Shown here: piece by piece, positions 35,569 to 54,058 of the stretch
Position numbering within the stretch: the stretch's first letter is position 1
Layout of the letters: each line of letters begins with the position of its first letter
Assembly: GCA_002840285.1 (NCBI GenBank)
Contig: PHAE01000006.1
Span: 1-64,000, forward strand
Direction: 5' to 3'
DNA: 64,000 nt
Origin: Firmicutes bacterium HGW-Firmicutes-11
Lineage (GTDB): Bacteria; Bacillota; Clostridia; Peptostreptococcales; Anaerovoracaceae
The notes under the pieces: generated by a model
What the model was told of the DNA's origin: nothing
What the model saw: only the letters and a program-made list of their open reading frames with translations
The model's database searches: none
Program-made: the position numbers and the translations under genes

Positions 35569-38007
35569 ATGAAAGTATTGATCATTGGAGGCGTTGCAGG
35601 CGGCGCCACCGCAGCAGCCAGGCTTCGCAGGCTGGACGAGAGCGCAGAAATCATCATGTTTGAACGTGGCGAATATATTTCCTTCGCCAACTGCGGCCTT
35701 CCCTATTACATTGGTGGTGAAATCACAAATAAAGCGGATCTGACGGTACAGACACCGAAAAGCTTCTATGACAGATTTCGTGTCGACGTCAGGATCAAGA
35801 ACGAAGTGCTGTCGATCGATCCCTCAGCAAAGGTCGTTGATGTAAAGGATCTTCAGACTGGCGATGTCTACCATGAAAGCTACGACAAACTGATCCTTGC
35901 CCCAGGAGCCGCGCCCCTCAAGCCGAATATGGAGGGTGTCGATCTCTCGCGGGTGTTCACGTTGCGAAATATTCCCGACACCTACCGGATCAAGGAGTTC
36001 ATCGACAACAATAAGCCAAAGCGGGTTTTGGTGGTCGGTGGTGGCTACATCGGCGTTGAAATGGCAGAAAACCTTCATCTCGCAGGACTTGACGTCACCA
36101 TCGTCGAGTTTGCAGATCACGTGATCGCGCCGCTGGATTACGATATGGCAGCAGACGTTCACAATCATCTCCGCCAGAAGGGCGTCACTCTGATCCTTGA
36201 AGATGGTGTCAATAAAATCGAGGAACAAAACGAAGAACTGCTTGTTACTCTCGGCAAAGGCCAGGTCAGCACCGACATGGTCATTCTGTCCGTCGGTGTC
36301 CGACCGGAGAACACCCTTGCGATGGAAGCCGGACTCGCTTTGAATCCCAGAGGTGCTGTCATCATCAACGACCATATGCAGACCTCTTCGCCGGACATTT
36401 ACGCAGTCGGCGATGTCACAGAGATCATGGATTATATCACCGAGGGGAAGGGATACATCCCCCTCGCCGGCCCGGCCAATAAGCAGGCCAGAGTAGCGGC
36501 AGATCACATTTTCGGTCTTCCAAGTGTGTATACCGGCACCCAGGGCACCGGCATACTTCGTTGTTTCGACCTTACCGTGGGGACCACTGGTCTGACAGAA
36601 GCAAGAGCAAAGCAATTGGGCCTTGATTATGAGAAGTCCTATACCTATTCCGCATCCCATGCTTCCTACTATCCTGGCGCTACCAATATGTCGATCAAAA
36701 TCATCTTCCAGAAAGAAGATGGACTCCTGCTCGGCGCCCAAATCGTTGGATATGACGGCGTAGACAAGCGGATCGACGTGATTGCTACCGCGATGCGGGC
36801 CAAGATGACAGTCTATGACCTGACCAATCTGGAGCTTGCCTACGCGCCCCCATTCTCTTCGGCAAAAGATCCGGTCAATATGGCAGGGTATGTTGCAGAG
36901 AACATCCTGACCAATAAAATCAAAATGTTCCAATGGAACGAGATCAACGACTTGCCCAGAGATGGAAGCGTGAACCTGCTTGACGTGCGGCCCAAAGTAG
37001 CTTTCGAAAACGGAGCAATGGAAGGATTTATCAACGTCCCGGAAGAAGATGTCCGGGAAAACATCGGTCTTTTGATCCCAGGGAAACCGGTTTATGTCGT
37101 CTGTCAGATGGGACTCAAGGGATACGCCGTCAGCCGTCTCCTTTCCCAACACGGGTTTGAGGTTTACAACCTCGCTGGCGGCTACCGCCTGTGGGCCAGC
37201 ATTTTCAAAGGAACGCCCAATAAAACTGAGGCAGCGGGAGGAAAAAAATCGATGGAAACTCTGATGAGCGAATCTACGGTCAAACTAACACTCAACACCT
37301 GCGGAATGCAGTGCCCGGGACCGATCATGAAAGTCGCGGAGGCGTTTTCCGATGCTGTCGACGGCGACGTCATTGAAGTACTGAGCAGCGATCCGGCCTT
37401 CGGTGCGGATATCGAAGCCTGGTGCCGCAGAACCGGCAACACCTTCCTCGGTCTGACCTCAGACAAAGGAATTTCTACCGCGCTACTGGCAAAGGGTTGC
37501 AGAGATGGATGCGTCCTTCCGGTGGTCAGCCCCAGCGGAGACAATAAAAACATCATCGTTTTTTCCGGAGATCTGGACAAGGCTATCGCTTCCTTTATCA
37601 TTGCCAACGGAGGCGCCGCGATGGGCCGAAAGGTTTCCATGTTCTTCACCTTCTGGGGATTGAATATCCTTAGAAAGTCAGAACCCGTTCCGGTCAAAAA
37701 AGATTTCATCAGCCGCATGTTCGGCGCAATGATGCCACGAGGCTCGAAAAAACTTTCGCTCTCCAAAATGAATATGGGCGGAATGGGAGCGATGATGATC
37801 CGTAGCGTCATGAAGAACAAGAACATCGATAGCCTGGAAGATCTGATTCGTTCCTCCATCGAAAACGGTGTTGAGCTGATTGCCTGTTCCATGAGCATGG
37901 ATGTCATGGGCATCAAACCGGAAGAATTGATCGAAGGTGTAAAAATGGGTGGAGTAGCAGCAATGTTAGGCAACGCAGAAGAATCCGATATGTCCCTGTT
38001 TATTTAG
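35569..38007 (+). CDS. cdr: CoA-disulfide reductase fused to rhodanese, TusA and DsrE-like domains
   Basis: 812 residues in four parts. Residues 1-450 are an FAD/NAD(P)H disulfide reductase with GGVAGGATAAARLRRLDE and the single redox Cys of CoA-disulfide reductases (SFANCGLPYYIGG, Cys42). Residues 455-548 are a rhodanese with loop VVCQMGLKG (Cys512). Residues 570-645 are TusA (NTCGMQCPGP, Cys578 and Cys582). Residues 658-812 are a DsrE/F-like domain. It likely reduces CoA persulfide or polysulfide and relays sulfane sulfur. AGGAGG fixes the start. A hairpin terminator follows. Confidence 0.93.
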   Translation: MKVLIIGGVAGGATAAARLRRLDESAEIIMFERGEYISFANCGLPYYIGGEITNKADLTVQTPKSFYDRFRVDVRIKNEVLSIDPSAKVVDVKDLQTGDVYHESYDKLILAPGAAPLKPNMEGVDLSRVFTLRNIPDTYRIKEFIDNNKPKRVLVVGGGYIGVEMAENLHLAGLDVTIVEFADHVIAPLDYDMAADVHNHLRQKGVTLILEDGVNKIEEQNEELLVTLGKGQVSTDMVILSVGVRPENTLAMEAGLALNPRGAVIINDHMQTSSPDIYAVGDVTEIMDYITEGKGYIPLAGPANKQARVAADHIFGLPSVYTGTQGTGILRCFDLTVGTTGLTEARAKQLGLDYEKSYTYSASHASYYPGATNMSIKIIFQKEDGLLLGAQIVGYDGVDKRIDVIATAMRAKMTVYDLTNLELAYAPPFSSAKDPVNMAGYVAENILTNKIKMFQWNEINDLPRDGSVNLLDVRPKVAFENGAMEGFINVPEEDVRENIGLLIPGKPVYVVCQMGLKGYAVSRLLSQHGFEVYNLAGGYRLWASIFKGTPNKTEAAGGKKSMETLMSESTVKLTLNTCGMQCPGPIMKVAEAFSDAVDGDVIEVLSSDPAFGADIEAWCRRTGNTFLGLTSDKGISTALLAKGCRDGCVLPVVSPSGDNKNIIVFSGDLDKAIASFIIANGGAAMGRKVSMFFTFWGLNILRKSEPVPVKKDFISRMFGAMMPRGSKKLSLSKMNMGGMGAMMIRSVMKNKNIDSLEDLIRSSIENGVELIACSMSMDVMGIKPEELIEGVKMGGVAAMLGNAEESDMSLFI

Positions 38008-38027
38008 AAATCGCTCATGCAATAAGA

Positions 38028-38063
38028 GAAAGACCATGGCAGTTGTACCTACCATGGTCTTTC
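38028..38063 (+). terminator. Terminator after the CoA-disulfide reductase gene
   Basis: 12-bp perfect stem (GAAAGACCATGG with CCATGGTCTTTC), 12-base loop, T-rich tail. It may also serve the opposing lipoprotein gene that ends at 38108. Confidence 0.8.
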
Positions 38064-38107
38064 TTTCGTTCTATTAAAACCCCTTTTGATATCCTTTGGA
38101 GGATAAC

Positions 38108-38890
38108 CTAGATTTCTCTCGAGACGATGATCGTGACCCATTCATCGCCCGGTCCGTCATAATTGCTGATCGTTGACCTGCAGACATATCCTTGGCTGGT
38201 CCATTGAAATTCCAGGCCATACTCATGATCATTCTCGATCAGATTGTCCGCGCCACTGTATTTGGCTGAGTAGAAGTCTTTGAATTCCTCTTCCGTCACA
38301 TTAGTGACGTGGGATTCCGTGTAAACTTCCTCCAATCTACTGTAATTTCTGACTTCATATCGTTGTTCAGAGAAAGCCGCCCTTCCGAAGGGTTCCACCA
38401 GATCACTCGGATAGTTGACGAAATATGGATTTTCTGTGACGTATTCTGACGGCTTTGATCCTATGATCAAGGACACCTGGGACTCTCCGTCTTCGGTCTC
38501 ATATACCATCACTCCGACCGGTTGTTCTCCGATCATCCCCTGAAGTGATTCATCATTGCTGTATTCTTCATCCATTTCCGTCAACAACCCTTTGTAGTAT
38601 TCCATGACATCCTTCAGGTCTGCGTCGGAAGTATAGGAGACGTTGTAAATGTCTTTCCCAAAGACCCAATTGGCATCTGCGCGGACTGCAAAGGATGTGC
38701 TCTCAACAAACCGGGCCTTGAACAGCGGCAAAACATCTTTCGGATATCCGGAAAGCAGCTCTACTCCTTCTGTTTGCTGTTCTGCAGCTGGCGGAGCAGG
38801 CCCTGTCGCGTTTTCATCGCTGCAGCCAGTAGCAAAGACAAGCAGGACAAGCAGACAAATTACGATTGCTTTTTTCATTCCACGATTCAT
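38108..38890 (-). CDS. Unknown lipoprotein, last gene of the 38-45 kb cluster
   Basis: 260 residues. Signal peptide with lipobox VFATGC at about residue 23, a Pro/Ala/Glu linker, then an acidic alpha/beta domain (LFKARFVESTSFAVRADANW; SDADLKDVMEYYKGLL) I do not recognise. Surface-anchored. The start at 38890 is set by AAGGAG 7 bases upstream and lies 12 bp after the preceding gene's stop, so it belongs to the same operon. Confidence 0.75.
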   Translation of the reverse strand: MNRGMKKAIVICLLVLLVFATGCSDENATGPAPPAAEQQTEGVELLSGYPKDVLPLFKARFVESTSFAVRADANWVFGKDIYNVSYTSDADLKDVMEYYKGLLTEMDEEYSNDESLQGMIGEQPVGVMVYETEDGESQVSLIIGSKPSEYVTENPYFVNYPSDLVEPFGRAAFSEQRYEVRNYSRLEEVYTESHVTNVTEEEFKDFYSAKYSGADNLIENDHEYGLEFQWTSQGYVCRSTISNYDGPGDEWVTIIVSREI

Positions 38891-38901
38891 TTGCAACTCC
38901 T

Positions 38902-39804
38902 TTACAATTCCGGGCATGCCAGAAATCCTTCGATGGTTTGCATCATCTCAAGACCGGCAACCGCTTTCAGTTCTACTTCTTCCGCATCGACCAGAAAAAA
39001 TACATGGTCGCAAACACCAGCCGTCAGACCAAGCCCGCCGCCGATCACCAGTTGTCCTTCTGCATCGATTGAGAAGCTTTCCACGAGAAGGGAAGTAGCC
39101 GGCACCAAGAAGCTCTTCGCAAACAGGGCATATTCGGGACGCAGACGATAGCCGTCTTCCTTTGTGACGATCTCTTTTTTCACAAGCGTGTCCAGCACTC
39201 GACTTATTTGGTTTTCTTCCGGCGCTTCATACCCGAAGCTGATGCGGAACAGATCCGTCAAGCTGCTGTCTCCGGTTGCTGCGGCTTGCCTTTGGATATC
39301 TTCCAACAACACCGTGTCTGCGACCTCTTCTCCGAGGTAGGAACGTAGCGTCCAGTGACGGTATACATCGATCAATGCCAGAAGCGTCATCGCCTCCTCC
39401 TCGGGCAACAGGACTTCAATTCCTGTGGTTTTTCGAGCAGACGTTCCGATGTATTGCGATACATCGTATCCAATGTGCGAAAAATCTTCCGGCAGACTGA
39501 TGTCAATATCCTCTCCTTGATTTTCCACTAACGCGATTGTCTCTCCTAAACGGTAGGCATAGGCTTCCAGAACCGTAAGTCCATCCCGAACAATCAGCCT
39601 CGCTGCCTGCTTGGCATCGGCAAGGATTTCCAGAACCGGACGGGCCGCAGCGGCTATGACTCCATCCTCCAGTACTCCCTTTGCTGCCAGTGTTGCCGCC
39701 TCGTTGCCATTGGTCGCGGCCCGGGTCGTTTGAAACAGGCTGATTGTGGTAGCTTGTGGAAACCGGTCAGCCAAATAGGCGATCTCATTCATTGAAAGCT
39801 TCAT
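38902..39804 (-). CDS. Unknown cytoplasmic protein of the 38-45 kb cluster
   Basis: 300 residues, no signal peptide or membrane segment. Two alpha/beta parts: residues 1-140 (MKLSMNEIAYLADRFPQATT, Ala-rich helices) and a middle with a winged-helix-like stretch (SRVLDTLVKKEIVTKEDGYR) near 205-225, then a beta-rich end that ends FLACPEL. Not recognised. Being cytoplasmic between a secreted protein gene and a lipoprotein gene, it might be a chaperone or immunity-type partner, which is speculation. Start at 39804 preferred for AAAGGGA upstream; 4 residues later is an alternative. Confidence 0.7.
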   Translation of the reverse strand: MKLSMNEIAYLADRFPQATTISLFQTTRAATNGNEAATLAAKGVLEDGVIAAAARPVLEILADAKQAARLIVRDGLTVLEAYAYRLGETIALVENQGEDIDISLPEDFSHIGYDVSQYIGTSARKTTGIEVLLPEEEAMTLLALIDVYRHWTLRSYLGEEVADTVLLEDIQRQAAATGDSSLTDLFRISFGYEAPEENQISRVLDTLVKKEIVTKEDGYRLRPEYALFAKSFLVPATSLLVESFSIDAEGQLVIGGGLGLTAGVCDHVFFLVDAEEVELKAVAGLEMMQTIEGFLACPEL

Positions 39805-39823
39805 CGTTTTGTTCCCTTTCTCT

Positions 39824-42472
39824 TTACATTCTTGGCTTGATGACGTATTCATTGGTGAGGTTAACCACAGTCTTCACGCCAGTCTGGACCAATTGCCTGT
39901 CGGTTTTCTGCTTTATAAAGTTTTCTGCAACATTTTTTGTCACCACTTTGCCGGACCACTGACCCACGGTGTTTCTTGCCAATCGAACTTGGCCATTCTT
40001 TAGTTGCGTCGTGAGCACATCGCCACCGAACCCTTTGCTTGTTGCATCAGGAATCGCGTCGAGCCCGGCCTTTACGACACCCTTTTTCAATCCTTCCACG
40101 AATCCTTTGCCTTTGCTGCTGGTGGTTTCGCCGAAGATTTCGCTTCCGATTTGCAGTCCGCTCTTCACCGCCTGCTGTGTCTTTGCGCTCCATTTGGGAT
40201 TGGTGAAATCGCTCGCCGCATCCAGGCCGCCCTTAACAAATCCGGAGCCTACGTTTTGCCAGCTGAGTCCCTGCTCTGCAGTGGTTTCTGCGATGCCTTT
40301 CGCTGTTTTGTATCCTGCACGGATTGCTCGTCCCGTCGGTCCAAGGGCATTGCCCATGCCGTCAATCGCCGCATCCGCAACATTTACCGTCACCTTGGCC
40401 GCTTGTTCGTAAGCGTTAGCGACATGTCCAGCTCTTATGTAAGCCTTGGCAACCGCCTCGTCCGCTGCTTGGTGTCTGCCAAGTGCGTCCAATGTGGTCT
40501 GCTTATTCGTCGTTCCATATTTGGACATGATTTTTGCCTGCACATTGGCGACTTCCAGCGCTTCTTTCCTCGCTTTGTTATCGTTTCGAAGCTTTTTGTC
40601 CCATTCGCTGCTGCTGGCATCATTGACCTCCCGATTTTTGGCCAGCGCTTCCCTGTCTTTTTCAAAACCCAGTTCCGCCGTCTTTTGAATTTCCGGGTTG
40701 AACGTGTTTCCCGTCTCCGGATTGACCCACTCGCCTGTGACCGGATCTTTGACAAATTCCACCGTAGTGCCCTTGGCGTCGATCTGCACGTTCATGGTTT
40801 CCGGTTTCGCCGGCGGCTCCGGCTCTGGCTGAGGTTCAGGCGCAGACTCAGAAGCCGGTTCAACCGGAGGTTCCTGCGCCGGTGGCGGTTCTGGCTTGGT
40901 CTCCTCTGGTAACGCCTCTTCTTCCGCAGACGCTTCGTACTCATCCTCTGCGGGTTCATCGTATTCGTCCCGCGAATCGCCGGCGCTGTCGCCTTCGGAT
41001 GCCCCAAAGGTTTCATTGTCGCCGACAGAGTTTGGATCGTCATCCGGATTGTCGGTGCTGCCCATCGCGTCGGCCATCATGATCATCGCCAATTCCGCAT
41101 CCGTTTTTCCGGGATATTTGTCTTTATACCAGTCCTTATCCCTCTGTCCGGATTTTTTCTTTGCTTTTGCTTTCGCTTTTTTTGCTTGCTCCTGTTTTAA
41201 CAGAGCACTTTGGATCGCATTTGCCACAACGGCTGCCAACGGTGGGAACAAGGCTCCGACTGCTGCTTGTCCTGCATTGTCGGGACCGGGAACGTTTCCG
41301 GCTTTGCTCATGAGACCAGCAAGCGCTGCTGTCACATATGGCGGAAGATCCTTTCCCGCAAGGACGCCGGACGCCTGCATGTTGTAAGTATTGTAGTCGG
41401 CCCCCTTGTCTGCGGAAGCTGCCCTTTCGTAGGTTCCCTCGCCGAGCAGTTGAAAGACTGCTGGACCACTGTCTGGTTTTTCCAAAGTGATCAATCCAAA
41501 CCCGGCGATTCTGGCTTTATAAGGAAGTCGTGTCAGGTCCATCTCCGCTTCCAGAGAAGCGGAAACAAAATTTTCTGTCCGCTCGATTACGGGGCACATC
41601 TGGGAAAACGGGAGTCCTTCATACTTTCCGATCAGTTGTATGACCTCGCCCTGATCTAACACCGTCAACTCAAAATCCTTCAGACTCATGCTGATGGACG
41701 GCGGGTTGACCGCGCCCATGAGCGTGCTGGTTTTTAACGTTTCAAAATTGATGCTGTATCGTCCCGTGAAGTCATAAGGCTCAACGATCCCATAGGATTC
41801 CATCGCTTCCATATACTTCAACCATGCATCGTAGTCGACACCGACGACCATAGCCGCCCCGTCCTGACCGGTCTGCCCGTTACGTACGATCCTGCTGTTG
41901 TCGGTCGTATGAATAAAGTATTCACCTTTTTCCACGAGAAGTCCATCTTCGATGGAAGCCGTATAGTTGACATATATGTCTTGGGGCTCTGCTTCTGCTA
42001 CCACCTCATTGCCGTCAGCGTCGGTGGTGAAAACCGGATCTGCTTCCCCCTGTACAAGGTAAGGGGTCATTAGAAACGGCCCGTAGGAATTCCCGGCGGA
42101 GTCGATCACCATTGCATTGACGGCATCCAGGTCCGGCAATTCCGATGGATAGGAATAAGGAACATGGATCGCAGTAATAAAACTGTCGCTCCGAATCGTT
42201 ACAGGAATCGGCGCTGCAGGATCTGGTATAGAATATAAGCGTTCTGGGTCCGTGACCCAGCTTCCCCGATAGCCGACGACTGCGCGGACATCACCGTTCA
42301 GGTCTACGTATTCCAAATTCCAGCTTCCGTTCTGATGCAATGTCTTCTCGTAGGGCGGAATCGGCGCCTCACCGGCGTCTTCCGCGAAGACGGAAAGCGG
42401 GAGCAATGAAACCAGCAGCAGGAAAGTAGCCGCTAACGCACAGATCCTTTGTTTTCTCTTTTGCGTTTTCAT
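39824..42472 (-). CDS. Large secreted modular protein of unknown function
   Basis: 882 residues. Signal peptide (cleavage near Ala30); beta-rich region 31-350; Ala/Gly-rich helix 365-425; Lys-rich stretch 427-445; acidic low-complexity 475-525; Pro/Glu-rich linker 524-558; a short DPVTGEWVNPETGN module near 576-589; charged helical region 595-700; Gly/Ala-rich small helices 695-810; basic C-terminus. The architecture resembles exported proteins with a delivery half and a separate C-terminal half, but I recognise no family. AGGAGGTGA upstream fixes the start. Central gene of the cluster. Confidence 0.8.
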   Translation of the reverse strand: MKTQKRKQRICALAATFLLLVSLLPLSVFAEDAGEAPIPPYEKTLHQNGSWNLEYVDLNGDVRAVVGYRGSWVTDPERLYSIPDPAAPIPVTIRSDSFITAIHVPYSYPSELPDLDAVNAMVIDSAGNSYGPFLMTPYLVQGEADPVFTTDADGNEVVAEAEPQDIYVNYTASIEDGLLVEKGEYFIHTTDNSRIVRNGQTGQDGAAMVVGVDYDAWLKYMEAMESYGIVEPYDFTGRYSINFETLKTSTLMGAVNPPSISMSLKDFELTVLDQGEVIQLIGKYEGLPFSQMCPVIERTENFVSASLEAEMDLTRLPYKARIAGFGLITLEKPDSGPAVFQLLGEGTYERAASADKGADYNTYNMQASGVLAGKDLPPYVTAALAGLMSKAGNVPGPDNAGQAAVGALFPPLAAVVANAIQSALLKQEQAKKAKAKAKKKSGQRDKDWYKDKYPGKTDAELAMIMMADAMGSTDNPDDDPNSVGDNETFGASEGDSAGDSRDEYDEPAEDEYEASAEEEALPEETKPEPPPAQEPPVEPASESAPEPQPEPEPPAKPETMNVQIDAKGTTVEFVKDPVTGEWVNPETGNTFNPEIQKTAELGFEKDREALAKNREVNDASSSEWDKKLRNDNKARKEALEVANVQAKIMSKYGTTNKQTTLDALGRHQAADEAVAKAYIRAGHVANAYEQAAKVTVNVADAAIDGMGNALGPTGRAIRAGYKTAKGIAETTAEQGLSWQNVGSGFVKGGLDAASDFTNPKWSAKTQQAVKSGLQIGSEIFGETTSSKGKGFVEGLKKGVVKAGLDAIPDATSKGFGGDVLTTQLKNGQVRLARNTVGQWSGKVVTKNVAENFIKQKTDRQLVQTGVKTVVNLTNEYVIKPRM

Positions 42473-42483
42473 GACTTCACCTC

Positions 42484-43032
42484 CTACTGCAACGGGTTTC
42501 CAACAAGGGAACCCAATAATTGTATTCCGCCTTCAATATAAGGCGGCACCATGCCTGCGAATCGTATGCCGATCGTCCAGACTGCGGCAAATGCGCCACA
42601 GACGACGGAAGTCGCTATGCTGTTCTTGATCGAAGTCGTTCCTTTGAGCTTATCGATTTCCAAAGAACTAGCCACGCCGGCGGTCATGAGTCCGGCAGAC
42701 AGGAATCCTCCCGGCACCGACCATCCCAGCAGGAAGGTTGCCAGAGCGGCCATCGTGGCGAAGGGAACCAGATAGGTCATCCCCTTACCTACGGCATAAG
42801 ATACCGCTTTTTTCCCGTGCTCTTTCTTCAATGCTCCGTTCATAGATCCTACGATCCCAGACAAGAAGGCGCGGCATACGATACCGAAGAGCACACCGAT
42901 CACTGCTCCAAAGATCAGATTGACCGGATTGAAGGGATTTGACATGTCAATCAGCGCCGATACTCCGAAAGCAGCGAAGCACAAGTGTCTGATAAAACTT
43001 CGCATACCCTTGCCTTTTGTTAATTCTTCCAT
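42484..43032 (-). CDS. Small glycine-rich membrane protein, unknown
   Basis: 182 residues with four or five membrane segments rich in Gly and Ala (NLIFGAVIGVLFGIVCRAFL; VPFATMAALATFLLGWSVPG). Unknown function. Start at 43032 chosen for GGGGGTGGG upstream. It overlaps nothing and precedes the large secreted gene by 11 bp, so it could support that protein's export or anchoring; this is inference from position only. Confidence 0.75.
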   Translation of the reverse strand: MEELTKGKGMRSFIRHLCFAAFGVSALIDMSNPFNPVNLIFGAVIGVLFGIVCRAFLSGIVGSMNGALKKEHGKKAVSYAVGKGMTYLVPFATMAALATFLLGWSVPGGFLSAGLMTAGVASSLEIDKLKGTTSIKNSIATSVVCGAFAAVWTIGIRFAGMVPPYIEGGIQLLGSLVGNPLQ

Positions 43033-43048
43033 ATGACCCACCCCCTTT

Positions 43049-43621
43049 CTATAACGCTGCAAACAACGACCAGGAGAAGAGAATGATTGCTCCTATGATC
43101 GTCGCCAACACGATCCCCAGCGCACTTTTTTCTTTGGTCATCTCCCGTATGGTCGCGATGATCGGTCCGGTGGCCCAGAGCACTCCGGTGATTCCAAAGG
43201 CCACAGCCGTCTTCCAGCCAAGCACGACGGAGAAGAGGATCCCAAGGACCCCATAGATCATGGCGCCGCTGTAACTAAGGCAGAAAGAGGAAATCGCCCA
43301 GCTGATGCTTTTCTCCGTTTTCACCAGTTTCATGATGAGCCAAAGGATTCCTCCAAGCAAAGGTATGATGATAAGGCCGTAGGCGATTCCGGCTCCGGCA
43401 GAAAACAGGGCAAAGCTGAAGCCCTTTTGACCAGTTTTGTACAAATCGAACCCGGTCTGAAAAAAGAAAAGTCCAAACGCCAGCGCCGAAACAGCGACAG
43501 AAAAGTACCAGGGCACCTTTGCCACCGATGACTTCAATGCCTTTGCCGGACTGACCATCATGGAAATGATCGTGCTGATCAGTGGTTTTTTTGCAGTTTG
43601 TGCAGTATCCAATTCATTCAC
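43049..43621 (-). CDS. Yip1-like membrane protein
   Basis: 190 residues with five membrane segments and the overall pattern of bacterial Yip1-domain proteins: a short cytoplasmic head KPLISTIISMMVSPAKALKS, then helices with LFSAGAGIAYGLIIIPLLGG. Role in bacteria unknown. GAGGTGA directly upstream of the ATG. Second membrane protein of the cluster. Confidence 0.7.
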   Translation of the reverse strand: MNELDTAQTAKKPLISTIISMMVSPAKALKSSVAKVPWYFSVAVSALAFGLFFFQTGFDLYKTGQKGFSFALFSAGAGIAYGLIIIPLLGGILWLIMKLVKTEKSISWAISSFCLSYSGAMIYGVLGILFSVVLGWKTAVAFGITGVLWATGPIIATIREMTKEKSALGIVLATIIGAIILFSWSLFAAL

Positions 43622-43632
43622 CTCGCTTTTCT

Positions 43633-44031
43633 TCAGGAATCCGCTTTGGTCAGTTCCAGCGTTAGTTCATTGACCCAACCGGTTTCCGAATGGGTCTGTA
43701 CGATGGTTCCTTTGGCCTTAACGATGGTGCCCTCCTCATAGAACTTCAGCGATAGTACCGTATCGTCGAATCCTTCTTCTCCTGGCATCGTGTAAACGAA
43801 CTCATTGTTGTCTGTTCGATAGTCGCTGGGTTCCTCGGGCTGATAATACCGTTCTTCATCATCGGTATCATATACCACTTCCACCTTTGTAAATGTCATA
43901 GTGCCGCTATAATCACCGGCGACGTCAAGGCTCTCCGGAGAAGCTGCGGTTTCTTCTCCCCCGCACCCGACACTCAAGGCGACGAGTAAAATCAAAACAG
44001 CAACTGATAACTTACGAATACCCATCCTCAT
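43633..44031 (-). CDS. Small lipoprotein, unknown
   Basis: 132 residues. Signal peptide with lipobox ALSVGC near residue 23, then a small beta-rich domain (DVAGDYSGTMTFTKVEVVYD ... GTIVKAKGTIVQ), suggestive of a lipocalin- or barrel-like fold. The start at 44031 is supported by GAGGAGGAG; the longer in-frame extension lies within the upstream gene. Confidence 0.75.
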   Translation of the reverse strand: MRMGIRKLSVAVLILLVALSVGCGGEETAASPESLDVAGDYSGTMTFTKVEVVYDTDDEERYYQPEEPSDYRTDNNEFVYTMPGEEGFDDTVLSLKFYEEGTIVKAKGTIVQTHSETGWVNELTLELTKADS

Positions 44032-44054
44032 GTTTCTCCTCCTCATTCTTTGAT

Positions 44055-44618
44055 CTATTTCAACAGCGGGCATTTGCAGCGAAAACACAGATCGTCCTTG
44101 ATGTCGTTCTTGCTGGCGCATGCATTGCAGAAAATGATCGTGTCGTTGGATTTGTCGTATTTTTCGAAGGAATTGAGACCTTTGTGGTGACGGACCCTGT
44201 CTCCGATCTCGTAGTAGTCGTAGACTGTGCTGTCGTCGTCAGCGGTCAAATGAACCAGTCTCCCATCTTCGCTTTCGATCGTGACCGTATATACCAAAAC
44301 ATTGATCCAGTGTTCGTCACTGCCGCTTCCAATGTTTTTGCTTTTCTTTTTAATTTTTTTATCTGTAACGTACCCGTCCCAGGTTTTGTTTCGTCTCCGT
44401 TTTCGAGTGGATGATCGGCCAATCAACAGGAACATGCATGCTATGATTGCTCCGATTCCTGCGGATTCCGGATTGTCCATTTCAGAAGACGTCTCTCCGT
44501 AGATATAAAAGCCGGAAAGTGCCACGATGGCCAGGAACGAAGCAAACCACATCGACCAACGATTGGAGTCCTTCACATATTTCGAAAAAGCCGGATCAAG
44601 AATCTTGGATGAGTACAT
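44055..44618 (-). CDS. Membrane protein with cytoplasmic zinc ribbon (DUF7489-like)
   Basis: 187 residues: two membrane segments (about 24-45 and 57-75), a basic patch, then a small beta domain (TWDGYVTDKK ... YDYYEIGDRVRHHKG) and a C-terminal CNAC/CFRC zinc ribbon ending PLLK. This pattern is shared by a family of uncharacterised clostridial proteins, which I associate from memory with DUF7489. Start at 44618 lies 23 bases inside the upstream gene with GGGAG 9 bases before it, so translation is coupled. Confidence 0.75.
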   Translation of the reverse strand: MYSSKILDPAFSKYVKDSNRWSMWFASFLAIVALSGFYIYGETSSEMDNPESAGIGAIIACMFLLIGRSSTRKRRRNKTWDGYVTDKKIKKKSKNIGSGSDEHWINVLVYTVTIESEDGRLVHLTADDDSTVYDYYEIGDRVRHHKGLNSFEKYDKSNDTIIFCNACASKNDIKDDLCFRCKCPLLK

Positions 44619-45132
44619 ACATGTCGTCTCCCAACTCCGGCTCGACACCGGTCTCATAACGAAACGCTTCAATGATAGCCTGGAGCTTCTCCTTTTCTAA
44701 TGACTGAAACAACAAAGTAGCCTCATGTATCCTCTCCCCTGCGCCATAGCGCAAACCAATGGAGTCGGCACCGATTTTAACTGATAACAGTTTGATCCCA
44801 TCCTGATTGAACCGTATCACTTTGGAGTTCATCAGAATTCCAAACCCGGATACCACCATTTGCATATCATTCAATAAGGTTCCGTCGAGTTTGGCGACGG
44901 GTATTTGTAATATCTGGTTGTCCCAGATAAGTCGGCCTGTGGTCAGATCGCGCACCGATCGGAACAGCCATACGATTGCAATGGCTCCTCCGACCGCAAA
45001 GAACAGCATCAATATAAGCACCTGCGGATGATCCGATGCAGAAAGCCAAAAAAGCATTGCCGCGAAGAAAGCTATCATACAAATTGCAGTCAAAGAAATG
45101 GCCTGAATAAAACGATACCGAATCTTTCGCAA
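44596..45132 (-). CDS. Two-helix membrane protein with PH-like domain, first gene of the cluster
   Basis: 178 residues: two membrane helices near the N-terminus (about 10-60), then a cytoplasmic beta-rich domain (LTTGRLIWDNQILQIPVAKL ... IRFNQDGIKLLSVKIGADSI) ending in an alpha helix, which looks like a bacterial PH-type domain. The start is probably TTG at 45132, since AAGGAGGGG lies 6-7 bases upstream; no ATG fits. The ribosome binding site is clearer than any promoter in front of it. Confidence 0.65.
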   Translation of the reverse strand: MRKIRYRFIQAISLTAICMIAFFAAMLFWLSASDHPQVLILMLFFAVGGAIAIVWLFRSVRDLTTGRLIWDNQILQIPVAKLDGTLLNDMQMVVSGFGILMNSKVIRFNQDGIKLLSVKIGADSIGLRYGAGERIHEATLLFQSLEKEKLQAIIEAFRYETGVEPELGDDMYVLIQDS

Positions 45133-45177: not shown

Positions 45178-45207
45178 AAAAAAAAACTCACCCGTTTGGG
45201 TGAGTTT
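45178..45207 (-). terminator. Terminator after the MFS-LuxR gene
   Basis: On the minus strand AAACTCACCC, loop, GGGTGAGTTT then nine T. It isolates the HD-GNAT-LuxR operon from the unknown cluster that starts at 45132. Confidence 0.9.
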
Positions 45208-45218
45208 CAAATAAAGTG

Positions 45219-51865: not shown

Positions 51866-51892
51866 ATAGCAGAAAGTTGATTGGAGGTGCTT

Positions 51893-54058
51893 ATGGATTT
51901 CAAAGAGCGCTTGGATGGCAAGGTCGGAAGTGCCTTCGACGCCGTCCATTCTCACGTCGAGTTTTATAAAACGATCATCGATCGGATGACAAATGCCTTC
52001 GCGTTGCACAAGGTGATTCTTGATGATACGGGCACGCCTTGCGACTATGTATATCTGGAAGTCAATTCCCATTTTGAAACGCTCACCGGTCTAAAGAGAG
52101 AGAATGTACTCGGCAAAGCGGTCAGCGAATTGCTTCCGTCTCTCAAAGAAGACAAGACCGACTGGATCGGACTCTATGGCACCGTCGCAATGAAAGGAGA
52201 ATCGATCTCGTTTGAGTCCTATTCTGCTCCGCTGGACAAATGGTTCCTCATAAACGCCTATTCACCTCAGCAACAGTACTTTGTGACTGTGTTCAGCGAT
52301 GTGAGTCAATTCAAAGAGAATGAAAACCGATTACGCTACCTTGTAAACCATGACGAATTGACAGGGCTGCGAAACCGACTCGGTCTGCACGAAGATATCA
52401 AGAAGGTTCTGCAGAATTCGCCAGATTCCTCCTGTGCATTGCTCTATATCGATGTCGAGAATTTAAAGTCGGTCAACAACACATTAGGGTATTCTGCCGG
52501 AGACAAATTCATCGTAGAGATAGCAAAGCGGCTCACTGCATTCTTTGAGAGCACGTACACGTTCTATCGATTGAACGGCGGCGAATTTGCGCTTTTGCTG
52601 CCGGAACATGTGACCGATGACGAACTGCTCGTCTGCGCCAAGCGAGTGATCCAGTGCTTTAAGGATCCGATCGTTTTGCTATTCGGCTCGATCCATACGA
52701 CGGTCAGTATTGGTATCGTCCGATACCCGGAGCACGGAGCCAACAGCGAAGAACTTTTGCGCAACGCCGACGTCGCGAGGAATTCGGCAAAAGGAATCGG
52801 CAGAAACAAGTGCACGGTTTACGAGCCCTCCTTATCACGGCTCATTGAAAAGCGCACAACCATGGAGAGAGAACTGTACTCTGCATTGGGAAATAATGAG
52901 TTTGAACTGTATTACCAACCGCAACTGGATCTTTCGACAAAGAAAATCACCGGTTTTGAAGCTCTGATACGCTGGAAGAATCCCAAACTGGGATTGGTGT
53001 CTCCAGCAGAATTTATCAGCATCGCCGAATTCAACCATCTGATCATACCTATCGGCGCATGGGTGATACGAAATGCCTGCTTCTTCGCAAAGCGCCTGCA
53101 TGCAAAAGGGTATTTCGGATTTACGGTCTCGGTGAATGTGTCTGTCATACAGTTGCTTCAGGATGATTTTGCGGACTCTGTGCTGGCCATTCTCGAATTG
53201 ATTGGCCTTGAGCCAAAGTACCTGGAGTTGGAAATCACCGAGTCCGTATTGCTTTCTTCATTTGATGCCATTTTCGCAAAAATCGAGACGCTTCGTTCTA
53301 GAGGGATACGATTTGCATTGGACGATTTTGGAAAGGGCTACTCCTCTTTGAGCAATTTGAATGCCCTCCCGTTCGATGTATTAAAAATTGATAAAGTCTT
53401 TGTTGATGCCATCACAGAGAGAGAAGATCGTTTGTGTTTTACCGACATGATCATCGCACTCGGCCGAAAACTGGGAATGACCGTTCTCGCCGAGGGTGTC
53501 GAAACACAGGAGCAGATGGACTATCTGATTCAAAACCAATGCCATCAAATGCAAGGGTATTTGTTCAGCAAACCTCTTCCCGACTCTGCCATATGGGATC
53601 TTATCAGAGAAACGACACCGCCTGAGAAAGCGATCCCCGAGTTTGAATGGAATGACAAATACTGCATTTGTATCAAAGAGCTCGATGACCAGCACAAGAG
53701 GATGTCTGCAATCGGCCGCAAATTGGCTCATTTGGCGTTATCCGACAGTCAAGATGTGAGAGATGATGAGTTGGCGGTTGTCTTTTTAGAATTGAAAGAG
53801 TATCTAAAATACCACTTCGAGTTCGAAGAAGCATTGTTTTTGAAAAACAATTATCCGTTCTCCATCACACATATTGGCGAGCATCACGGCTTTATTGCTC
53901 AAGTGGAAAAGGCATTTAACGATACCTCCGTCGACAAAGGGAACCACTACTATGGATATCTGGTCGACATGATATCGGTCTGGATCACCAACCACATTCT
54001 GAAAGAGGACCGACGCTACGGCACGTATCTGACCGGGCATGGGGACAAACCCCAATAG
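51893..54058 (+). CDS. PAS-GGDEF-EAL protein with C-terminal hemerythrin domain
   Basis: 721 residues. PAS about 20-140. GGDEF domain 150-310 is degenerate: the signature is RLNGGEF (226-232). EAL domain 325-575 keeps the catalytic set: FEALIRW, VSVNVS, ELEITES, ALDDFGKGYSS, KIDKVFV and EGVET. Bacteriohemerythrin 585-710 has all seven di-iron ligands (His601, His641, Glu645, His660, His664, His701, Asp706). Predicted cytoplasmic cyclic-di-GMP phosphodiesterase controlled by oxygen or redox through the di-iron site. GGAGG upstream fixes the start. Confidence 0.93.
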   Translation: MDFKERLDGKVGSAFDAVHSHVEFYKTIIDRMTNAFALHKVILDDTGTPCDYVYLEVNSHFETLTGLKRENVLGKAVSELLPSLKEDKTDWIGLYGTVAMKGESISFESYSAPLDKWFLINAYSPQQQYFVTVFSDVSQFKENENRLRYLVNHDELTGLRNRLGLHEDIKKVLQNSPDSSCALLYIDVENLKSVNNTLGYSAGDKFIVEIAKRLTAFFESTYTFYRLNGGEFALLLPEHVTDDELLVCAKRVIQCFKDPIVLLFGSIHTTVSIGIVRYPEHGANSEELLRNADVARNSAKGIGRNKCTVYEPSLSRLIEKRTTMERELYSALGNNEFELYYQPQLDLSTKKITGFEALIRWKNPKLGLVSPAEFISIAEFNHLIIPIGAWVIRNACFFAKRLHAKGYFGFTVSVNVSVIQLLQDDFADSVLAILELIGLEPKYLELEITESVLLSSFDAIFAKIETLRSRGIRFALDDFGKGYSSLSNLNALPFDVLKIDKVFVDAITEREDRLCFTDMIIALGRKLGMTVLAEGVETQEQMDYLIQNQCHQMQGYLFSKPLPDSAIWDLIRETTPPEKAIPEFEWNDKYCICIKELDDQHKRMSAIGRKLAHLALSDSQDVRDDELAVVFLELKEYLKYHFEFEEALFLKNNYPFSITHIGEHHGFIAQVEKAFNDTSVDKGNHYYGYLVDMISVWITNHILKEDRRYGTYLTGHGDKPQ

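Follow-up and report, generated by a model that had tools for sequence, protein, structure and literature searches.

EspG proteins are known from type VII secretion systems (T7SS). In mycobacteria, they are cytosolic chaperones that sit on the hydrophobic tip of PPE proteins, keeping them soluble and routing them to the appropriate ESX system (PMC5311947). Chaperones with the EspG fold have also been proposed for T7SSb, namely EsaE, and YfjC, whose gene lies directly downstream of that of its client (PMC10765036), and EspG-fold proteins are present in some T7SSb as well as in T7SSc, h and i (PMC11217815). A TsxC ATPase and a WXG100 protein are common to the described variants of type VII secretion, although no clear TsxA gene was identified in T7SSi (PMC11217815). 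A different kind of modularity, a constant scaffold with exchangeable C-terminal toxin-immunity cassettes, characterizes the polymorphic toxin systems (PMC3482391). The EspG fold and its chaperone-client logic are, in other words, already known from type VII secretion. The literature found places EspG-fold chaperones solely within type VII secretion, as components or partners, and yielded no paper on proteins of this fold elsewhere; nor, as far as it goes, does it describe a membrane client with a signal peptide in genomes that lack a type VII machine. Here we report a candidate for such a client, encoded at positions 38108-45132 of a 64,000-nucleotide stretch (the window) of contig PHAE01000006.1 from Firmicutes bacterium HGW-Firmicutes-11 (GCA_002840285.1).

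The locus holds eight genes, g1 to g8 (Table 1), of which g7 encodes a protein with an EspG fold and g6, directly upstream, a large modular protein. The account that we prefer, with moderate confidence, is that g6 is a Sec-targeted, membrane-anchored modular surface protein with its own EspG-fold chaperone, g7, independent of known type VII secretion. If this is true, the EspG chaperone class is broader than type VII secretion or has been recruited away from it. The two proteins form a concrete, testable chaperone-client pair that accounts for an otherwise blank operon, and they suggest a modular surface or effector system of which the literature found gives no description.

Comparison with described systems

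With the EspG proteins of ESX-1/3/5 (T7SSa), g7 shares the overall fold along its entire length, the absence of a signal peptide and a gene encoded together with that of the presumed client. Unlike them, g7 is only about 10% identical and stays below the Pfam cut-off, its client would be a membrane protein with a signal peptide rather than a PE/PPE pair, the genomes that carry the g6-g7 pair (the carriers) yielded no ESX genes, and several of its relatives have an added C-terminal zinc ribbon. EsaE-EsaD of Staphylococcus aureus and YfjC-YfjB of Bacillus subtilis (T7SSb) likewise place an EspG-fold chaperone beside a large client in the Bacillota, and YfjC occupies the same position downstream of its client as g7 (PMC10765036). 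However, EsaD and YfjB are LXG-type or T7-associated toxins using EssC and WXG100, whereas g6 has a signal peptide and a predicted transmembrane segment, and no such machine turned up in the carriers. TscG and TshG of T7SSc and T7SSh are EspG-like proteins that were also found by structure comparison in the Bacillota (PMC11217815), but their clusters hold TsxA and TsxC, and the g1-g8 cluster holds neither. The polymorphic toxin systems resemble the g6 family in their constant scaffold, exchangeable C-terminal ends and, in three g6 relatives, an end-linked gene (PMC3482391); on the other hand, Pfam reported no trafficking module (such as WXG/LXG or PrsW) in g6, and the g6 of the window has no extra end.

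The EspG fold of g7

The original prediction saw no recognisable function in the cluster, and a Pfam and NCBIfam search of the eight products placed none of them over its cut-off. For g7, this description no longer holds. Its AlphaFold2 model (30-sequence alignment) reached a predicted local distance difference test score (pLDDT) of 94 and a predicted template modelling score of 0.87. When the model was compared with the PDB using Foldseek, all 18 matches with E<=0.001 were EspG1, EspG3 or EspG5 (best E 3.7e-10, probability 1.00), and the next match had an E of 0.06. VIA-align gave Z 11.6-14.2 for 14 EspG entries, including EspG5 in its complex with PE25-PPE41 (4kxr; Z 14.2, root mean square deviation (rmsd) 4.2, 230 residues), and the first non-EspG entry had Z 9.4 over just 97 residues. 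Computation thus shows an EspG fold for the modelled g7, which is predicted to be a chaperone. EspG was also the sole Pfam family match for the window's g7; it was reported for 3 of 13 g7 members (best E 0.057), and in several it was the sole family besides zinc ribbons. A g7 profile gave few, insignificant matches to the PDB, EspG1 among them (E 0.28).

It should be mentioned that many EspG-like proteins bear an extra C-terminal double-CxxC zinc ribbon, which is absent from the window's g7. No g7 paralogue was found elsewhere in the window genome, and a match to g7 in genome G034 was discarded as spurious because it lies inside a transcription-repair-coupling-factor-like gene.

Conservation and pairing of g6 and g7

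Relatives were sought by a pattern scan of 84,980 species genomes and by class- and phylum-level profile scans. Among 60 sampled relatives, g6 was present in only one, G037 (same order, 30% guanine plus cytosine (GC), single contig), which keeps the order g4-g5-g6-g7 with identities of 52, 37, 38 and 22%, respectively. Profile scans of 398 Bacillota genomes found g7 in 17 and g6 in 18, with 11 in common against about 0.8 expected by chance; the core of the operon occurs in about 4% of the sampled Bacillota genomes. In 24 of 31 distinct loci, g7 lies directly behind a g6 relative, and in four more a single gene or gene piece intervenes; the remaining g7 genes are one near a contig edge, one in a g6 operon with another order, and one fragment. 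The order g4 (YIP1-like)-g5-g6-g7 recurs in about 17 loci across the Bacillota, and this core order and the pairing are kept across distant members of the phylum with 30-58% GC. The genes g1 and g2, and the upstream gene g0 described below, recur in subsets of the loci.

Over 28 pairs, the g6 helical domain and g7 give concordant trees (Mantel r 0.71, with 0/5000 permutations as high), and in G096 (locus L027), which has two g6-g7 pairs, each g7 clusters with those g7s whose g6 has the same architecture as its own partner. These observations suggest that g6 and g7 are a matched pair, as expected of a dedicated chaperone and its client, although common descent plays a part in the agreement. The earlier proposal that the genes belong together, as an envelope assembly or a system exporting and anchoring the large protein, is supported in part: the recurring g4-g5-g6-g7 set does resemble a system that makes or anchors this protein. 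The co-occurrence of all eight families, which had been put forward as a check, was seen for g4 to g7, whereas g1 and g2 accompany them in some loci only, and the lipoproteins g3 and g8 are lineage-specific.

Architecture of g6

The g6 protein begins with a signal peptide (residues 10-28), followed by beta ectodomains at about 42-225 and 230-375 and a transmembrane segment at 407-425; behind this come a KAKAKKK flank, an acidic linker, a beta hairpin (559-591) with the motif KDPxTGEWVNPETG, a glycine-rich helical domain (about 593-805) and a short tail. A conserved stretch bearing the motif IPGPxxxxQAxxGxLFPPL ends in the hydrophobic segment, behind which eight of 15 residues are positively charged. 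Because hydropathy and the positive-inside rule place the positive flank of this segment inside, the C-terminal half of g6 is probably cytosolic, and the protein probably spans the membrane. The label "secreted" given to it earlier therefore needs revision, as the internal hydrophobic segment predicts a membrane-anchored and not a freely secreted protein. Nearly all g6 relatives bearing a signal peptide have another hydrophobic stretch after the ectodomain, with 2-8 positive charges among the 15 following residues in the window's g6 subgroup.

The part most widely common to g6 relatives is the helical domain, which is found even in proteins with quite different N-termini. Residues 230-375 are similar to closed barrels of eight strands, among them the PknI sensor domain (Z 8.7, rmsd 3.8, 129 residues), although these matches are generic. 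Structure searches with the full-length protein gave only generic beta-barrel matches (Foldseek best E 1.4e-3), and an assignment of its overall fold was abandoned.

Several variants of this architecture were observed. Two g6 relatives (L034 7009-12636 and L104 6825-9146) have long runs of YDxxG-type repeats (GYDKEGYDAEGYDKEG...) between the membrane segment and the helical domain. In another subgroup (Table 1), an N-terminal motif, DFVTNSSSxSF, before a hydrophobic segment replaces the signal peptide and ectodomain. A radical SAM/SPASM gene lies directly upstream of these proteins (identified with Pfam in L030 and L101), which suggests that its product may be a maturase acting on the motif; no paper on the DFVTNSSS motif was found. 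A second family of large exported proteins occurs in the same clusters behind zinc-ribbon genes (L009 5676-8327, 883 residues; L030 4216-7107, 963 residues). Its members have an internal Ala/Gly-rich hydrophobic segment and differing C-termini, and the L030 protein contains HHELCHAIEHQH, resembling a zinc metallopeptidase motif.

Search for a type VII machine

None of 20 carrier genomes, the window's own among them, had a WXG100 protein (PF06013; TsxA) scoring over the cut-off. For the EccC/EssC ATPase (TIGR03928; TsxC), all matches in carriers were far below the cut-off, and the best of these lay in FtsK-sized open reading frames. Five genomes, four of them single-contig, were also searched for PF01580 (FtsK/SpoIIIE), and each had one FtsK and otherwise minor matches only. 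Membership of type VII secretion was dropped on these grounds. The known hallmarks of type VII secretion were thus not found in the carriers, where very divergent components might still have escaped detection.

We therefore disfavour the explanation that the locus is an unrecognised type VII variant, in which a divergent WXG100/EccC machine, encoded at another site, handles g6 as its substrate, and regard it as improbable. The presence of EspG-fold proteins in several type VII variants (PMC11217815) speaks for it, but every described variant keeps the TsxC ATPase (PMC11217815), and g6 carries a signal peptide of its own.

Proposed mechanism and alternatives

In the account that we prefer, Sec would export g6 by means of its signal peptide, so that the beta-sandwich and beta-barrel ectodomains face outside. 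Translocation would halt at the conserved transmembrane segment with its IPGPxxxxQAxxGxLFPPL motif, and the acidic linker and helical domain would stay in the cytosol. There, g7 may bind the helical domain and keep it soluble or inactive without a type VII machine, by analogy with EspG on the helical tip of PPE proteins and with EsaE and YfjC as proposed. The YIP1-like g4 and g5 would be membrane partners, produced just before g6, which assist it or remain with it; the lipoproteins, which vary by lineage, and g1 and g2 would be accessory, and g0 would probably regulate the locus. The family as a whole may represent a modular outside-membrane-inside scaffold whose section C-terminal to the helical domain can be exchanged, the window copy having a plain short end. 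The assembly may serve as a surface structure, as a sensor or as a carrier of effectors.

The main objections to this view are the following: (i) the kinship of g7 to EspG is a matter of modelled fold, its score against Pfam EspG (PF14011) being 13.5 bits where the cut-off is 27; (ii) trees may be congruent through common descent as well as through contact; (iii) the topology of g6 is a prediction from hydropathy, and in relatives such as those in L034, L088, L093 and L099 the residues directly after the hydrophobic segment carry no positive charge; (iv) the whole-chain model of g6 is poor (mean pLDDT 58.6), and its helical domain is therefore not comparable with PPE or LXG bundles; and (v) the window genome is a draft, 95.85% complete.

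Other explanations partly overlap with the preferred one, because the latter concerns anatomy and the chaperone and the former concern the role. The C-terminal ends of g6 relatives raise the question of a monoderm polymorphic toxin system, in which the end would be an interchangeable effector, released or injected on contact, like secretion-arrested CdiA, while the EspG-like chaperone and an immunity protein keep it in the producer and the window copy has a small effector or none. The remainders behind the helical domain fall into separate classes of about 35-180 or about 370-800 residues, and a constant part with exchangeable C-terminal domains, the hallmark of polymorphic toxins, is what is seen across the relatives. 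In L085, L086 and L098, one long end is held in common and is followed by a common gene of 270-300 residues inserted before g7; because the core and g7 of L098 group with L099 and not with L085/L086, the end and its linked gene appear to have moved together as one cassette, a pattern typical of polymorphic toxin-immunity cassettes (PMC3482391). T7SSb toxins are, moreover, served by EspG-fold chaperones (PMC10765036). A profile of the L085-type end domain had as its best PDB match an RTX-toxin module, which would fit, but the match is insignificant (E 0.16) and the identification was rejected. The end domains had no significant toxin match in Pfam, the L085-type end was not seen outside the g6-g7 system in 299 genomes, and the predicted topology places the end in the cytosol of the producer. 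As for the window itself, its g6 belongs to the short-end class, with a 109-residue tail common to nine relatives, no extra C-terminal domain and no Pfam match, and no gene in the window is recognisable as a candidate for cytosolic immunity. A toxin role for this g6 is not indicated, and we consider the toxin explanation possible but unlikely. A further possibility, a T7SS-independent, EspG-chaperoned polymorphic effector system in which a Sec-inserted scaffold is arrested at IPGP...PPL, the chaperone and linked gene product hold the exchangeable end back in the cytosol, and contact or a signal completes its export into a neighbouring cell, is quite unlikely in our estimation. Export of the PrsW type, which the zinc ribbons had raised, was rejected when Pfam reported no PrsW domain in the scanned proteins.

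It is also conceivable, although we think it unlikely, that g6 is a transmembrane receptor whose ectodomain responds to a ligand or to a signal from the envelope and whose cytosolic helical domain, restrained by g7, relays it, the enzymatic ends of relatives being the outputs. The predicted N-out/C-in topology, the similarity of the second ectodomain to ligand-binding beta-barrels and to the PknI sensor domain, and the adjoining LuxR-type regulator g0 would all suit a receptor; yet the barrel matches are generic and weak, the window's g6 has no known output domain, and the EspG precedents are export chaperones. That the cluster is a chance assembly of unrelated, ordinary envelope genes sharing an operon seems very improbable. 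The conservation of order and pairing over distant Bacillota refutes it for g4 to g7, whereas it may still apply to g3 and g8, which have no homologues in any related locus.

Operon layout and accessory genes

Eight consecutive open reading frames run along the minus strand from 45132 to 38108, with neighbours 11-23 base pairs apart or overlapping. Using starts with ribosome-site support, the spacings are -23 (g1/g2), +23 (g2/g3), +11 (g3/g4), +16 (g4/g5), +11 (g5/g6), +19 (g6/g7) and +11 (g7/g8). The original prediction had described this run and a terminator at each end, and both descriptions were borne out, the terminators as strong hairpins (Table 1). Spacing and terminators together suggest that g1-g8 are a single operon. 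The cluster matches the rest of the window in base composition, and the neighbouring genes also in GC content at third codon positions, so nothing points to a recent foreign origin. A phage or plasmid origin was likewise rejected, with a native composition and no g6 match in phage or plasmid records or in IMG/VR, as was a defence system, for which PADLOC gave no convincing match (the g0 matches cover the helix-turn-helix (HTH) only) and the PHROGs matches were weak and of unknown function.

Directly beyond the upstream terminator lies g0, which was left out when the system was earlier taken to end there. Its GerE HTH is well over the Pfam cut-off (E 2.6e-18; 65.9 bits against 23.5), and its relatives adjoin the cluster in seven other loci with an EspG-like gene (L009, L010, L027, L085, L088, L091 and L102) and are also present in L031 and L033. 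It is therefore probable that g0 belongs to the system, and it probably regulates the cluster.

Table 1. Features of the locus and of related loci
Feature	Position	Strand	Basis
g0, MFS-like membrane domain and C-terminal LuxR-type HTH, 475 residues	45219..46646	-	PF00196 GerE
Rho-independent terminator between g0 and g1	45183..45208	-	-16.6 kcal/mol, z -5.5
g1, 178 residues, two transmembrane helices and soluble domain	44596..45132	-	TTG start, GGAGG site
g2, 187 residues, two transmembrane segments, CxxC...CxxC zinc ribbon at C-terminus	44055..44618	-	sequence
g3, small lipoprotein, 132 residues	43633..44031	-	lipobox LSVGC
g4, YIP1-like membrane protein, 190 residues, four transmembrane segments, core gene	43049..43621	-	Pfam Yip1 PF04893
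g5, Gly-rich membrane protein, 182 residues, three predicted transmembrane segments, core gene	42484..43032	-	sequence
g6, core protein, 882 residues	39824..42472	-	sequence, hydropathy, structure model
g7, EspG-fold protein, 300 residues, predicted dedicated chaperone of g6	38902..39804	-	AlphaFold2, Foldseek, VIA-align
g8, lipoprotein, 260 residues	38108..38890	-	lipobox FATGC
Terminator hairpin between g8 and convergent gene 35569-38007	38018..38075	-	-27.8 kcal/mol, z -8.2
EspG-like genes with extra zinc ribbon (examples)	L009 13108-14139; L028 1207-2205; L034 5881-6978; L093 14490-15818		
DFVTNSSSxSF subgroup of g6 relatives	L030 9058-10491; L100 10670-12205; L101 8138-9571; L102 10315-11826; L106 1038-2492		

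Two family labels given earlier to the smaller products correspond to matches below the Pfam cut-offs. The Yip1 match of g4 was seen and spans nearly the whole model, but its 15.9 bits do not reach the cut-off of 28.6; relatives at the same position are 52-68% identical. Similarly, the DUF7489 match of g2 was seen in Pfam at 14.4 bits, below the cut-off of 27. Relatives of g2 with 44-54% identity occur in L009, L010, L028 and L030, and those of g1 in L010, L012, L027, L031, L033, L085, L088 and L102. The lipoproteins g3 and g8 are lineage-specific, at a position often taken by unrelated lipoproteins. Lipoproteins without common sequence, of which g3 and g8 are examples, make up 16 of the 88 other genes in the clusters but 14 of 292 in the background (Fisher p 1.7e-4), an enrichment that comes from a post hoc count based on open reading frame calls and is indicative only.

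Elsewhere in the window, the gene convergent with the operon encodes an 812-residue fusion of CoA-disulfide-reductase-like and DsrE2-like parts (NCBIfam), and a 725-residue GGDEF-EAL protein with a bacteriohemerythrin domain at its C-terminus is encoded at 51881-54058.

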